Of a stretch of DNA of 33,854 nucleotides, positions 26,593 through 33,854 are shown piece by piece. Position numbers and translations under genes: made by a program. The notes under the pieces are model-generated. The model was not told the origin of the DNA, ran no database searches, and saw only the letters and a program-made list of their open reading frames with translations. The stretch is from Deltaproteobacteria bacterium. GTDB taxonomy: Bacteria > Desulfobacterota > Deferrisomatia > Deferrisomatales > BM512. Each line of letters starts with the position of its first letter. Position 1 is the stretch's first letter. The stretch is taken from the NCBI GenBank assembly GCA_002869015.1, contig PKTT01000013.1, positions 1 through 33,854 on the forward strand, written 5' to 3'.

Positions 26593-27081
26593 ATGAAGAG
26601 AGTTCTTGGGGCGAAGGAGGTCTACTCAAACATTCAAAAGTTGAAAGGTTTTACAACAAAGAGGGAGTTGGCAGAGTTTTTTTGTGTAAGCCCTTCGGCC
26701 ATAAGCGATTGGGTAACTAGAAACAACGACACTATTCCAGCAAAAAAAATCGCGGAAGCCAGTCACCGCCACAACTTGAGATGGCAGTGGCTTAGCTATG
26801 GGGAGTTACCCCCTTACGAGGAAAAAATTGTCGAGAAGAGGACTGGTATCGAGCTGGACCCCGTCGAAGTTGAGTTGCTCGGAAGGATAAAGAAATCTCC
26901 CGTCTTTCGGCAAGCTGTAGAGCGAATGATGGGGCTTGATGAGCATTGCATAAAGCTGGTGGCATCAGTTGCCGAGTCCATGGGTGAAAAAGCACGTGAA
27001 GCCGAAGTGAAAAACCCTGGACCTGACTCGCGGGTGGTAAGAGAGAAAAGGAGCATAACCCCTTTCGGCAACCACTGGTAA
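26593..27081 (+). CDS. Phage CI-type repressor-like transcriptional regulator
   Basis: The 162-residue protein has an N-terminal helix-turn-helix of the bacteriophage CI repressor type: TTKRELAEFFCVSPSAISDW at about 21-40, then IPAKKIAEASHRHNLRWQWL, which is the usual continuation of the family (a helix ending in the W-L-x-x-G-E motif, here WLSYGELPPY). It lacks the S24 peptidase domain of self-cleaving repressors; the C-terminal half is helical and charged. GAGGAG precedes the ATG by six bases. It is divergent from the three small genes, with facing promoters between, which is the layout of a phage lysogeny switch. It could also be a domesticated regulator. Confidence 0.8.
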   Translation: MKRVLGAKEVYSNIQKLKGFTTKRELAEFFCVSPSAISDWVTRNNDTIPAKKIAEASHRHNLRWQWLSYGELPPYEEKIVEKRTGIELDPVEVELLGRIKKSPVFRQAVERMMGLDEHCIKLVASVAESMGEKAREAEVKNPGPDSRVVREKRSITPFGNHW

Positions 27082-28505: not shown

Positions 28506-30839
28506 CTAGCCGGCAGCCGATAGCTCCCAGATACCACAGGGGCAGACCCCCGCGCAGAATCCACAACCTATGCATTTGTCCGAATCGACCACGTACTCAT
28601 AAGTTCCATTGTCGTGTTCTACACGGCTTATTGCGTTCCAGTAGCAGCTATGCTCACAGATGTGGCAATCACGGCAGGAGCCGCAGCTCATGCACTTACC
28701 ACCCTCGGTGGAGCAGCTCACTGCGCCACCCTCACGCTCACGGTCAAACCACTCAAAGGAGAGCTTTTCGTAGGGCACTATCGTGCGCTTGTCGTCCTCA
28801 TACTCAGTCTTTGTTATAAGCGAGTGGACGTACTCAGCAACCCTAACGCCATCTCCGATGGCGTTTGTGATGAGGCCAGGTTTTGTAACGTCGCCGATTG
28901 CGAAGACCTTGGGGTCGTTGGACTGCCCAACGGAATCTACCCTAATGTGCCCTCGGTCGAGGTCAACCTCCTTGGGCAGGTATTCGAGTTCGGGGGTCTC
29001 ACCGATTGAGATTATCGCAAGGTCCGCATCAAGGTATGTGCCATCGGTGAAGTGAATTTTCTTCTCTTCAAAATCATAATGGTCGGTAAATTTGGGGTAC
29101 TGGATCGTCGCGCCCCTCGCCGCCGCCATCTTCTGCTCCTTGCCGAAGGAGGCAGGCTTCTGTATATCAACCGCCACCACCTCTGCGGCGCCGCAGTTGA
29201 AGGCTTCCACGCAGATGTCCATACCCACATTACCGGCGCCAATGACGACCACCTTCTTACCGGAGAGGTCGCGCTCTATGCCGGCGGTAATCTCTTTTAA
29301 GAAGACTATGCCGGGAAGCACATGCTCGTAACCGGGGAAGGGAATGGTTCGCGGAGAGTGGCTGCCCGTGGCCAGGATAACCGCGTCGGACTCATCATGA
29401 ATTTTATGGTAGAGGTCTGCATCAACCTTTGTTGAAAGGTGTATGTCAACCCCCAGCTCCTTGAAGCGCGAAAGCTCTTTGGAGAGCACCTCGCCGGGCA
29501 GGCGGTCCTCGGGAATGCAGTAATGTATCTTGCCGCCGAGGTTGTCCTCACCCTCGTAAAGAGAGACGTTGTAACCCTTGAGGGCCAACTGGTAGGCCGC
29601 GGAGAGGCCGGCAGGGCCGCCGCCGACCACGGAGACCTTCTCATTTCGCGCCTTCTCTTTAGCGGGCGCGGGGCGGTCTATAGAGAGCCTCCCAAGGAGG
29701 GTCACGTCAACGGGGTCGCTGAGGAATATCGAGCGGGTACATGACTCCATACAGAGGTTGGGGCATACGTAGCCGCAGACGGTGCCGGGGAAGGGAGAGT
29801 ACCTTAAAACCAGATCCAGCGCCGCATCCTCCTTTCCCTCCCTGATGAGCTTGGTGCGCTCATGGGTTGGGATACCGGTGGGGCAGTTGTATGCGCAAGG
29901 AGGCGCATAGCGGTCGTTATCCCAAGAGGGTACGAACCGGCGGTTCTCCCCGGTAACGACATAGGGGATGATGGTGTGGTCAATGTCAAGGTAATCGGCG
30001 AAGATGCCGCCTTTGCCCACTCCAGGCTCCCACGTGCCCTGGCGGAAAGCCTCCATCGAGAGGCGTTTAGCGCCCTTTGACACTCTCTCCTGGGGTGTGA
30101 GCGAGACTATCTTCTTCCAATCCTCTTTGGATTTTGTCAGCTCCTCGAGATAACCGGCGCGGTCTATTGCTTCGAGGTAGGCAGGGAAGTTGGAGGTTAG
30201 CCACTCCCAGTCGGCATCAGTAAGCTCAGCGATTCTAGCGTCCTTCTCGCTGACGCCCTCGACAGGGCCCCTGAAATAAATTGTGCCGCCTACCATACCC
30301 ACGCAGGAGCGGTAGCCAAGAATGTTTTCAGGGTTCCTCGGATCCACGCCACAAACTACCGCAATACCTCCGGCCTTGAACTCTGCGAAGGAGTCGCCAA
30401 CGTCACGAAAATACCATGACTCCACCGGCGCAAAGCGTGGATTGAACTTTGTGAGGGTGTCGCAGCGAGCGCCGCCGCCGCCCTGGACATAAAGTTTGCC
30501 CTGGGCTCCAGCGTTGTGCGCTCCATTTGAGACATCGCCAAGGACGGTGATCTCTGCGCCGCAGTTAACCCAGCCCACGTCATCGGATGCGGAGGTGTTT
30601 ACGACAATCTTCGTCCCCAACATACCCATGCCGCCAAGGCGCTGACCAGGGTAGCCATTGACCTCTAGGGTCACGCCCTCCTCGGAGGGCCATATACGCC
30701 CGCCGATTCCATGCTGCCCATCGGCGTCAATGGTAAGGTGCTTTTCGCCACCTTTCACCGCTGCCTGTATACGAGCGTCCATCTCCTTGGAGGGGACGCG
30801 ACCTTTCTCATCTCTACCTGATATTTCAAACGACCGCAT
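28506..30839 (-). CDS. gltD: Glutamate synthase: GXGXG domain fused to FAD/NAD(P) subunit with C-terminal ferredoxins
   Basis: This subunit feeds electrons into glutamate synthase. The domain order in the 777-residue protein is: a GXGXG structural domain (about 35-200, with repeats such as GYPGQRLGGMG and GAHNAGAQGKLYVQGGGG), a GltD-type cysteine region (CAYNCPTGIP, then CGYVCPNLCMESC), an FAD-binding motif (VSVVGGGPAGLSAAYQLA), an NAD(P)-binding motif (KVVVIGAGNVGMDICVEA), the FAD closing motif FAIGDV, and two C-terminal iron-sulfur motifs (CMSCGSCRDCHICEHSC and CIGCGFCAGVCPCG). In classic bacterial enzymes the GXGXG domain ends the large subunit; here it sits on the small-subunit side. AGGAG precedes the ATG. 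The stop is TAG. Ferredoxin or NADPH could be the donor. Confidence 0.9.
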   Translation of the reverse strand: MRSFEISGRDEKGRVPSKEMDARIQAAVKGGEKHLTIDADGQHGIGGRIWPSEEGVTLEVNGYPGQRLGGMGMLGTKIVVNTSASDDVGWVNCGAEITVLGDVSNGAHNAGAQGKLYVQGGGGARCDTLTKFNPRFAPVESWYFRDVGDSFAEFKAGGIAVVCGVDPRNPENILGYRSCVGMVGGTIYFRGPVEGVSEKDARIAELTDADWEWLTSNFPAYLEAIDRAGYLEELTKSKEDWKKIVSLTPQERVSKGAKRLSMEAFRQGTWEPGVGKGGIFADYLDIDHTIIPYVVTGENRRFVPSWDNDRYAPPCAYNCPTGIPTHERTKLIREGKEDAALDLVLRYSPFPGTVCGYVCPNLCMESCTRSIFLSDPVDVTLLGRLSIDRPAPAKEKARNEKVSVVGGGPAGLSAAYQLALKGYNVSLYEGEDNLGGKIHYCIPEDRLPGEVLSKELSRFKELGVDIHLSTKVDADLYHKIHDESDAVILATGSHSPRTIPFPGYEHVLPGIVFLKEITAGIERDLSGKKVVVIGAGNVGMDICVEAFNCGAAEVVAVDIQKPASFGKEQKMAAARGATIQYPKFTDHYDFEEKKIHFTDGTYLDADLAIISIGETPELEYLPKEVDLDRGHIRVDSVGQSNDPKVFAIGDVTKPGLITNAIGDGVRVAEYVHSLITKTEYEDDKRTIVPYEKLSFEWFDREREGGAVSCSTEGGKCMSCGSCRDCHICEHSCYWNAISRVEHDNGTYEYVVDSDKCIGCGFCAGVCPCGIWELSAAG

Positions 30840-30849
30840 AACGATTCTC

Positions 30850-32505
30850 CTAGCAGGCGTAGTTTATTTCGAGGCGCTTCGCCACGGCGGCGTCGCTCAC
30901 GGAGAGTCCATCGGACATACCAATCGGCAGCTCTGTAGAGCGACCCATCGGAGCGAAAATCTTCTTTAGCTCTTTGTCCGCAGCAACGAATACATCTACC
31001 ACCCGCTGGGCGACCATGTCGGGGTCTAGGCGGCGGAAGATGCGTGGGTCCTGAGTTGTTATCCCCTTGGGGCACTTGCCGGTGTTGCAGATGTTGCAGC
31101 GGTTGTGCTCATCGCCAAGGCAGCCGGCCGCAGCCTGCATAATATACTTGCCGCAATCAACACCGGACGCGCCGAGCATTATGAGCGCTGCGGCATTTGC
31201 GGCGAGATTCCCCTGCTTGCCGACGCCGCCCGCCGCGAAGAGCGGTAATTCGTTTTGTGCGCCGATTTTAACAAGGTTGAGGTAACACTCCCTCAGGTTC
31301 GAGGCGATTGGGTGGCCCATCTTATCAAGGGAGACATTATACGCCGCACCTGTACCGCCATCTTCGCCGTCAATGCCCAGAGCCGCAGCGAAGGGGTTTC
31401 TGGCCAGGTTGTTTAAAACAGCCAGCGCCGTGCGGGTTCCCGATATCTTCGGGTATACGGGCACGCGGAAATTCCACGCCATACTCATCGCGGTGACCAT
31501 CTTCGCGACAGCCTCCTCAATTGAGTATTTGGTCTGATGCGTCGGCGGCGAGGCAAGGTCAACAAACTCCGGCACGCCGCGAATCTTGGCTATGTGCTTC
31601 AAAACCTTGGAGGCCATCAGGAGGCCGCCGTCACCGGGCTTGGCGCCCTGCCCGTATTTGATCTCAATACCCGCCGGGTCGCACTGCATATCGGGGATTG
31701 CATGCACAATCTCATCCCACCCGAAATAACCCGAGGCTATCTGTAGAATGAAATATTTAAGAAATGGCGATTTGAGAAGCCTCGGCGGCATCCCTCCCTC
31801 GCCTGTGCACATAACGACAGGGATATTCTCTACCTCGTTGAGGTAGGCGATGCCCATCGCGAGCCCCTCCCACATGTGGGGCGAGAGGGCGCCTACGCTC
31901 ATGCCGCCTATACGTATGGGGAAAATCTCTCTCACCGGGGGGATAAAGGGCATCCCTTCGGGCAAGAGGAGACCTCCGTCAACCTTTAACGGCAGCTTCT
32001 CCGGTGGTAGATTCCTGCCGAGGTAGGTCCTTACGCGGAATTCATGGCGGCCCGCGTCCAGGGCCGGGTCGGTTAGCATTGAAATGCGTGTAAACTTCAG
32101 CTGGTCGAGCACCGAAGCGCCGGTTTCATTCCTTCTGCCGCCGCGCTTATAGGGCTCACCTCCCTGATTCATGTGCCACGCAAACTTATTTCGCGGATTG
32201 AATACGGGGACAATAGCGTCGTTGGGGCAAACCTGCCTACAGGTCGCGCAACCTATGCAGCGCCTGTTGATATCTACGACCTGTTTAATGCAGGAGCCGA
32301 CCTTCCTCACAGTGGTAGGCAGCGGTGTGGAACCTGTTGACTCCACGACACGCCGTTCATAGACGCCGGGCTCAATCGCCTGCACTGGGCAGATGGATGT
32401 ACACCTGCCGCAGCGGGTGCAAGCGGCGTCATTCCACTGAATTACGTAGGGGAGATCGCTTAACCCAAGCTGATGGTTGACGTCGAGCCGTTCAGCTGAT
32501 TCCAT
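30850..32505 (-). CDS. gltB: Glutamate synthase FMN-binding (synthase) subunit with N-terminal ferredoxins
   Basis: This is the catalytic synthase domain that combines ammonia with 2-oxoglutarate on FMN. The 551-residue protein begins with two [4Fe-4S] motifs (CTRCGRCTSICP and CIGCATCRQVCP). The synthase barrel follows: GEGGMPP, IKYGQGAKPGDGG, GIDGEDGGTGAAYN, and the 3Fe-4S segment CNICNTGKCPKGITTQDP. It lacks the amidotransferase and GXGXG domains, which are in the neighbouring genes, so the layout is archaeal-like. AAGGAG sits eight bases before the ATG. The start overlaps the amidotransferase gene by 46 bases. The stop is TAG, with ten bases to the next gene. Confidence 0.92.
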   Translation of the reverse strand: MESAERLDVNHQLGLSDLPYVIQWNDAACTRCGRCTSICPVQAIEPGVYERRVVESTGSTPLPTTVRKVGSCIKQVVDINRRCIGCATCRQVCPNDAIVPVFNPRNKFAWHMNQGGEPYKRGGRRNETGASVLDQLKFTRISMLTDPALDAGRHEFRVRTYLGRNLPPEKLPLKVDGGLLLPEGMPFIPPVREIFPIRIGGMSVGALSPHMWEGLAMGIAYLNEVENIPVVMCTGEGGMPPRLLKSPFLKYFILQIASGYFGWDEIVHAIPDMQCDPAGIEIKYGQGAKPGDGGLLMASKVLKHIAKIRGVPEFVDLASPPTHQTKYSIEEAVAKMVTAMSMAWNFRVPVYPKISGTRTALAVLNNLARNPFAAALGIDGEDGGTGAAYNVSLDKMGHPIASNLRECYLNLVKIGAQNELPLFAAGGVGKQGNLAANAAALIMLGASGVDCGKYIMQAAAGCLGDEHNRCNICNTGKCPKGITTQDPRIFRRLDPDMVAQRVVDVFVAADKELKKIFAPMGRSTELPIGMSDGLSVSDAAVAKRLEINYAC

Positions 32506-33599
32506 ACCTCTATCTCCTTGGCACCCGGCCTTACCATCACCAGGTCATATTTCATCGGAAAAACATCGTTACTTGTATCGCGGCCGGGAACGGCCTCGCT
32601 AAGCCCGCAAACCTCGCTCATGAAACCAACGCGTCCATTTACGCCGCCCACAACTCCGGGGCGCAGCTTCTTTGCGTCCTGCGTCATGAATACCGTGCCG
32701 TCAATATCGCAGCCGATAACGCAGTTGGGGCCATCGATGGTGAGCATACGGAGGGAGCGCTTCATAAGCTCTAGGGTAGAGGCTTCGGGGCGTCTCGCCA
32801 TCTCTTCACCCTTAAGTGGGGTGATGACATCCTTATAATAGTTAAGGGGGTAGCCCAGCTTTTTCCTTGTGTAGTGTAGGATGTGCGCAAACACCTCGCT
32901 GTCGGAGTTATACCCGACGTACCCTTCCACGCCGCGCGAACCCAAATACTCGCGGATTGGAATAAAGGCGGTGTTCTCCCCGTTGGTCATCGTGAAGTAC
33001 CCCTGGATAAAGAAGGGGTGGCACGCGTAAAGATTGATTGCGTAGTTTGTGTTCTGGCGGCCCTGCGCGAAAACGGTCTTCGCGGTTATGGGGTTTTTGT
33101 CAAGACCGAAGAACTCACCGACCTCCAGAGGGTCGCCAACCTCTTTGAGGGTCACGACGTCAGGCCAAAAAGAGAAGACCGTGATAGACTTGTCCGCCTC
33201 ACCCAGCGCGCGTAGCTCCAAGCGCGTGCGGGTTAGGAGCAAAGCCTTCTCCTCGCTTGACGCATCCTCATAGCTCTCCGGATATTCATAGAGGTTTACG
33301 AGGTATTTATCACGCTTTTGTATCTTCATGCCGGGAGTCACCTTGAGGCGGGGTTCCCAGCGATGCTTGACACGAAAGCCCTTATCGACCATGTAATCCT
33401 GAAGGGTGTGGTAGCCATCGTGGGTCGTAATGGCCGAGAGTACAGGGTACTCCTTCAGGGATTCAAACTCGCCACCGAGATCGCGCATGATGAGGCCAAG
33501 GCCCGAACCATCGTGCCCCTCCTTCATCGTCTCAAGGGCGAGGATCGGCTCCATTGGGGAGATATACTCCGCCGAAACCAGCGCACTCAATCGACACAT
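32460..33599 (-). CDS. Glutamate synthase class II glutamine amidotransferase subunit
   Basis: This releases ammonia from glutamine for the synthase subunit. The 379-residue protein starts MCRLSAL, giving a mature N-terminal Cys nucleophile after Met removal, as in all class II amidotransferases. It also shows HDGSGLGL, TNGENTAF (the NGE oxyanion region) and YNSDSEVFAHIL, which matches the SDSE region of GltB. It is a separate gene where most bacteria have a single 1500-residue GltB. AAGGAG lies six bases before the ATG. It is the first gene of the operon and sits directly behind a sigma-54 promoter. Confidence 0.9.
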   Translation of the reverse strand: MCRLSALVSAEYISPMEPILALETMKEGHDGSGLGLIMRDLGGEFESLKEYPVLSAITTHDGYHTLQDYMVDKGFRVKHRWEPRLKVTPGMKIQKRDKYLVNLYEYPESYEDASSEEKALLLTRTRLELRALGEADKSITVFSFWPDVVTLKEVGDPLEVGEFFGLDKNPITAKTVFAQGRQNTNYAINLYACHPFFIQGYFTMTNGENTAFIPIREYLGSRGVEGYVGYNSDSEVFAHILHYTRKKLGYPLNYYKDVITPLKGEEMARRPEASTLELMKRSLRMLTIDGPNCVIGCDIDGTVFMTQDAKKLRPGVVGGVNGRVGFMSEVCGLSEAVPGRDTSNDVFPMKYDLVMVRPGAKEIEVWNQLNGSTSTISLG

Positions 33600-33651
33600 T
33601 TAAAACTCCTTACAGAAAAAAATTTCCCAATCAAGCGGGAAGAAGATAATT

Positions 33652-33667
33652 AGCAACTAACGTGCCA
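33652..33667 (-). promoter_or_regulatory. Sigma-54 (RpoN) promoter of the glutamate synthase operon
   Basis: The minus strand reads TGGCACGTTAGTTGCT, an essentially perfect -24/-12 element: GG at 33666-33665, GC at 33654-33653, exactly ten bases between them. The predicted start is near 33641, about 42 bases before the amidotransferase ATG. An RpoN enhancer-binding activator such as NtrC is expected from the known mechanism, but its site was not identified. Confidence 0.8.
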
Positions 33668-33743
33668 TTGCCCACAAATGCTCGTAAGTACTTATTATTA
33701 CTTGCTTTTTTGGAAACAGCCATCTTCCCCGCAGGCGCATAAA

Positions 33744-33758
33744 TGCCTATTTTTTATA
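33744..33758. repeat. 15-bp direct repeat, copy 1, upstream of the sigma-54 promoter
   Basis: TGCCTATTTTTTATA on the plus strand, identical to the copy at 33827-33841. It lies about 103-117 bases upstream of the predicted transcription start, within the usual range for an enhancer site. An AGGC/GCCT pair flanks it on the left. It does not match the NtrC consensus. Confidence 0.55.
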
Positions 33759-33826
33759 CACACAAAACGAAGAAGAAGAGAAGTCAAATAGCGTAAACAT
33801 CTGTTATATCTAAATTAATTGGCATT

Positions 33827-33841
33827 TGCCTATTTTTTATA
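33827..33841. repeat. 15-bp direct repeat, copy 2, upstream of the sigma-54 promoter
   Basis: This is the second identical TGCCTATTTTTTATA, 83 bases from copy 1 and about 186-200 bases upstream of the predicted start. Its left edge is part of the inverted repeat GGCA-TT-TGCC (33821-33830). The rest of 33600-33854 is AT-rich and holds no gene I can support. Confidence 0.55.
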
Positions 33842-33854
33842 AAGGCCCATTCCG

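Follow-up and report, generated by a model that had tools for sequence, protein, structure and literature searches.

What drives transcription of the split glutamate synthase operon at this locus, and which protein would switch it on? The window, the whole stretch of DNA analyzed (33,854 nucleotides), is the entire contig C54 of a 2.53 Mb genome in 67 contigs (G000), and thus only 255 bases were available 5' of the first ATG. Positions 33600-33854 would be the control region of the operon. The sequence TGGCACGTTAGTTGCT within it was read as a working sigma-54 promoter for the operon, with a probability of roughly 0.8 based on sequence comparison.

The operon consists of three genes on the minus strand, arranged head to tail. 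The first (32460-33599) encodes a GltB1-like amidotransferase subunit of 379 aa that starts MCRL with a cysteine at position 2, and the second (30850-32505) a GltB2-like FMN subunit of 551 aa with 4Fe-4S domains (Glu_synthase PF01645, E = 1.6e-57), which was the only match to an FMN subunit in G000. The third (28506-30839) encodes a single 777-aa protein in which GXGXG, GltD-like FAD/NAD(P) oxidoreductase and ferredoxin domains are fused. The start of the GltB2-like gene overlaps the end of the GltB1-like gene, and a 10-nt gap precedes the third gene. The 777-aa subunit was similar to GltD chains and NfnA, and matched Pyr_redox_2 (E = 2.2e-34), Fer4_7 (E = 9e-9) and GXGXG (E = 6e-6; 26.4 bits, below the 32.5 cut-off). 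No Pfam or NCBIfam family was identified for the GltB1-like subunit at E ≤ 0.001, and only a weak match was found to GlmS (E = 0.26). Its assignment was based on the MCRL start, with a Cys2 that was invariant in 11 aligned sequences, and on the operon neighbors. The three genes were accordingly annotated as a predicted split (archaeal-type) glutamate synthase, with clear assignments for the FMN and oxidoreductase parts. Past the 3' end of the operon, 26593-27081 on the opposite (+) strand encodes a phage CI-type helix-turn-helix protein of 162 aa.

The -24/-12 element TGGCACGTTAGTTGCT (TGGCACG-TTAG-TTGCT; 33652-33667, minus strand) was identified by direct reading, a consensus scan and conservation. 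Its GG lies at 33666-33665 and its GC at 33654-33653, with ten bases separating them, and it agrees with the sigma-54 consensus TGGCACG-N4-TTGCW at 12/12 positions. The predicted transcription start was placed from the -12 position by counting 12 bases past the C of GC, which gave 33641 and a leader of 42 nt to the ATG. Within the leader, a ribosome-binding site AAGGAG was read at 33606-33611, followed by the ATG at 33599. An earlier note on this DNA had given the same element (33667-33652, minus) with the same GG-N10-GC spacing, and had counted 42 bases to the first ATG with a start near 33641; the former was correct, and the latter was reproduced by the same arithmetic as a predicted start. 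Its further claim, that sigma-54 drives the operon, was supported as a prediction by the sequence, its conservation, the presence of rpoN and nitrogen genes with like promoters. Two features go beyond that note, the paired repeats upstream and the lack of the promoter in four relatives of one family (f2).

On both strands of the window, the zero-mismatch pattern TGGCACG-N4-TTGCT was matched only by TGGCACGTTAGTTGCT, where approximately 0.004 exact matches were expected (12 fixed bases, both strands, equal base use; our own arithmetic). Looser matching was uninformative, as 25 window matches were obtained at ≤3 mismatches vs. 28.5 expected by chance. Across G000, the consensus at ≤1 mismatch gave 24 matches (5 exact) vs. 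5 for the reversed pattern. Thirteen were intergenic, including all 5 exact matches, and 11 lay inside ORFs; an ORF start was found ≤400 nt downstream of 11 of the 13 intergenic matches. One near-consensus site (L024, G000:C61:11049-11064) lies 71 nt 5' of the gene for a small secreted-looking protein, which may resemble TorF-type porins.

Genes for the sigma-54 machinery and for nitrogen metabolism were located in the same genome. The rpoN gene was found at C7:9850-10323 (E = 1.0e-62), and Sigma54_activat gave 17 matches, of which 16 were strong and carried a GAFTGA-like loop; no NtrC equivalog scored above cut-off among these 16 regulators. G000 encodes one glutamine synthetase and two ammonium transporters. 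An exact sigma-54-like site was located 209 nt 5' of the glnA ATG, and others upstream of amtB1 (-12 part TTGTA, with GT for GC), upstream of amtB2 (10/12 positions) and 60 nt upstream of nifD; the glnA, amtB1 and nifD sites are intergenic. Both nifH and nifD scored above the NCBIfam cut-offs, and the NifA-like regulator adjoining nifD scored just below its own (526.4 vs. 528.85 bits). These genes lie together with a nifV-like gene at L164 (G000:C29:27000-39000), a gene set from which the organism is likely a nitrogen fixer.

To place the promoter among relatives, 12 genomes of the order Deferrisomatales were compared, in families f1 (5), f2 (4), f3 (2) and f4 (1). The GltB1 subunit and rpoN were each present in 12/12. 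Near matches to GltB1 included Deferrisomatales, which would place the window in this order, and the closest named record was PKTU01000002 (Deltaproteobacteria bacterium BM525), at 97% identity; in this sister species the -24/-12 element was kept, with the spacer alone changed. A GG-N10-GC element at ≥10/12 positions was detected upstream of GltB1 in 7/12 order genomes: 5/5 of f1 (at -118 from the ATG in G003, and at -66 to -77 in the others) and 2/2 of f3 (at -75 and -77). None was detected at this threshold in the 4 f2 genomes or the one f4 genome. Among 80 named GltB1 loci, 3 were dropped (<120 nt upstream), and the element (≥10/12) was found in 11/77 vs. 1/77 on the opposite strand and 0.45 expected by shuffling. 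The 11 positive loci comprised 3 order members, one Methylomirabilis record (-69) and 7 other records from outside the order; in these 7 the element lies 180-316 nt upstream, and its placement is therefore less clear. The named-locus and order-genome sets are not independent, since seven of the order genomes apparently recur among the named loci as L083-L089. A GltB1 tree resolved neither the order of the families nor loss of the sigma-54 element in f2 vs. gain elsewhere.

Two 17-bp inverted repeats of the type TGCCTA-N5-TAGGCA were identified 5' of the promoter, 83 bp apart. Site 2, TGTATAAAAAATAGGCA (33744-33760, minus), is centered at about -111 from the predicted start, and site 1, TTTATAAAAAATAGGCA (33827-33843, minus), at about -194; both are imperfect (10/12 and 9/12, respectively). 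A pair 76-83 bp apart, or approximately eight helical turns, with each site ≥8/12, was found in 11/12 order genomes. G011 had a single good site, and thus at least one good site was present in 12/12. In none of the 12 upstream regions did any of 500 dinucleotide shuffles score as high as the actual pair. Discovery and testing of the motif used one set of 12 genomes, however, and the permutation, spacing and out-group controls therefore carry more weight than the shuffles. The pair score summed over the 12 genomes was 241, vs. ≤193 for 179 permuted half-sites and ≤204 at spacings other than 76-83. A pair score ≥17 was obtained at 12/12 order loci vs. 0/67 loci outside the order (73 loci, less 6 with <300 nt upstream). 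Single sites scoring ≥8 were uninformative, with 13.6 expected in 12 shuffled upstream regions, and only the pair was informative. In G008, contigs C51 and C81 carry the same repeat pair and probably represent a single locus assembled twice.

The repeats appear to be operon-specific, as no genome-wide enrichment was detected at ≤1 mismatch (36 places vs. 39 for the reversed control, 12 genomes). Thirteen of the 36 places lie 5' of GltB1 by coordinates, and two of the 13 come from a contig that appears to be a duplicate. The exact motif occurred at 4 places in the 12 genomes, 3 before this operon and the fourth inside an ORF. No TGCCTA-type repeats were seen before glnA, amtB1 or amtB2 of G000, by eye and by a scan at ≤1 mismatch. 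Given this and the lack of genome-wide enrichment, no nitrogen-wide activator regulon was visible. Other roles for the upstream sequences were considered. RNA hairpins or terminators of the upstream gene were not favored, as G000 and G001 retain the TAGGCA arm and the spacing but have a disrupted TGCCTA arm. A stretch common to the window and the amtB1 region, GTACTTACG, was dropped, being absent in the sister species (by eye). In D. vulgaris, glutamate synthase is among the PhoB targets given in the available part of one report (PMC3333781); PhoB was set aside as the regulator here, the repeats being unlike a Pho box as judged by eye alone.

The pair was taken as binding sites for an enhancer-binding protein on account of its distance and layout. 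Where a sigma-54 element exists (7/12 genomes), site 2 begins 81-107 bp upstream of it, which is the usual enhancer distance. The layout G-N3-A-W5-T-N3-C matches Fis-type binding, and the TGC-N11-GCA spacing matches NtrC sites. It is therefore somewhat probable, from sequence features, that the repeats are the activator's binding sites. RNA polymerase with sigma-54 would sit waiting on the -24/-12 element, while an enhancer-binding protein of the NtrC/NifA family with a Fis-type DNA-binding end would be bound to the repeats at about -194 and -111; it would loop over and open the complex under nitrogen shortage, which is the presumed signal. The best candidate activator is the lone NifA-like regulator at G000:C41:49329-50930, which has one clear ortholog in each of 11 relatives (68-97% identity). 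It was chosen only because it is present in 12/12 order genomes, like the repeats, in a co-occurrence comparison that covered this one of the 16 regulators. No clear autoregulatory repeats were found before it in the 12 genomes. A second NifA-like regulator gene, in G002, has the repeat TGCCTAAAAAACAGGCA just past a TTGACC-N17-TATAAT promoter (L183:844-860; G002:C41:33343-33359); a repeat of this type was not seen in the four other orthologs examined. A further NifA-like regulator match, at L184 (G003:C1:109265-110689), contains one in-frame TGA.

The repeats also occur in the four f2 genomes and the one f4 genome, where no sigma-54 element could be recognized. The pair brackets TTGACC-N17-TACAAA in three of the f2 genomes (G005, G006 and G007; equalled by 4.5-9.5% of shuffles), and a weaker sigma-70-like promoter in the fourth (G008; equalled by 24.5% of shuffles). 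Neither promoter type was clear in the f4 genome. These arrangements suggest a predicted sigma-70 promoter beneath the same operator pair in f2. More speculatively, and with the odds against it, one dedicated regulator may act on the conserved pair throughout the Deferrisomatales, with sigma-54 in some families and sigma-70 in another, such that one promoter class would have replaced the other while the operator pair stayed as it was.

The -24/-12 sequence is very unlikely to be a chance match. Loose matches did occur at chance frequency and 11/24 near matches in the genome were inside ORFs, but the element itself is exact, intergenic, at a suitable distance and conserved in other genera. A sigma-70 promoter could instead be what mainly drives the operon, with the -24/-12 element minor or idle, and the four f2 genomes apparently manage without such an element. 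This was considered improbable, though less so than a chance match, because the best sigma-70-like score upstream in G000 was no better than shuffles (58.5% as good), whereas the -24/-12 element is exact and its sister-species copy differs in the spacer only.

The most serious alternative concerns the repeats, which may be sites of a local, glutamate-synthase-specific regulator that represses, or both represses and activates, and does not belong to the enhancer-binding proteins, with the sigma-54 promoter activated via other, unrecognized sites. Consistent with this are the near restriction of the motif to this operon (3/4 exact places in 12 genomes), its retention without a sigma-54 element in f2, where the pair brackets the sigma-70-like sequence in three genomes, and the G002 copy, which accompanies a different NifA-like regulator gene at what appears to be its sigma-70 promoter. 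However, the pair stands at enhancer distance wherever sigma-54 elements exist, and its layout is of the Fis type, and the local regulator was judged possible but clearly the less probable reading of the sites. Binding of an activator to the repeats, at a sigma-54 promoter, was retained as the preferred reading.

Predicted sigma-54 control of ammonium assimilation would thereby be extended to the Deferrisomatales, a little-studied order, here with nifH and nifD in the same genome. Conservation of the operator pair provides a testable handle on its regulator, and the contrast of f1 and f3 with f2 a natural case of a possible change of sigma factor with the regulator sites kept.

The operon may be compared with that of G. 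sulfurreducens, where the GOGAT operon GSU1235-1239 has a predicted RpoN promoter (PromScan 88), and thus, like the window operon, a predicted -24/-12 element before a multi-gene glutamate synthase operon. In the same species glnA is RpoN-dependent, and the glnB-glnA promoter was confirmed by primer extension; in the available portion of that study, GOGAT is not among the confirmed promoters and upstream activator sites are not described (PMC2725144). No precedent for a sigma-54-controlled split GOGAT was found in the accessible parts of PMC12316311, where glutamate synthase is not mentioned, or of PMC3224663. No published account of the paired repeats was recognized in the open-license literature searched, and the paired sites appear to be undescribed so far.

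The control region of E. coli glnA has two NtrC sites upstream of a sigma-54 promoter. Those sites share the TGC-N11-GCA spacing with the window repeats, but have ACC where the window half-site has CTA. In D. vulgaris, DVU1823-DVU1821 are presumably a split GOGAT. They are listed under nitrogen metabolism in the sigma-54 regulon of DVU1949, a one-component activator that acts with sigma-54 promoters of nitrogen metabolism and transport operons, in the part of that report available (PMC4641369, Table 1). As sigma-54 control of GOGAT operons has been predicted in both G. sulfurreducens and D. vulgaris, in the portions of those sources at hand (PMC2725144, PMC4641369), the promoter is not new in kind, and the remark in the earlier note that such control is less often described for the split type was only partly right. 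The DVU1949 regulon, as given in the same portion, comprises nine operons, whereas repeats of the window type were found essentially only before this operon.
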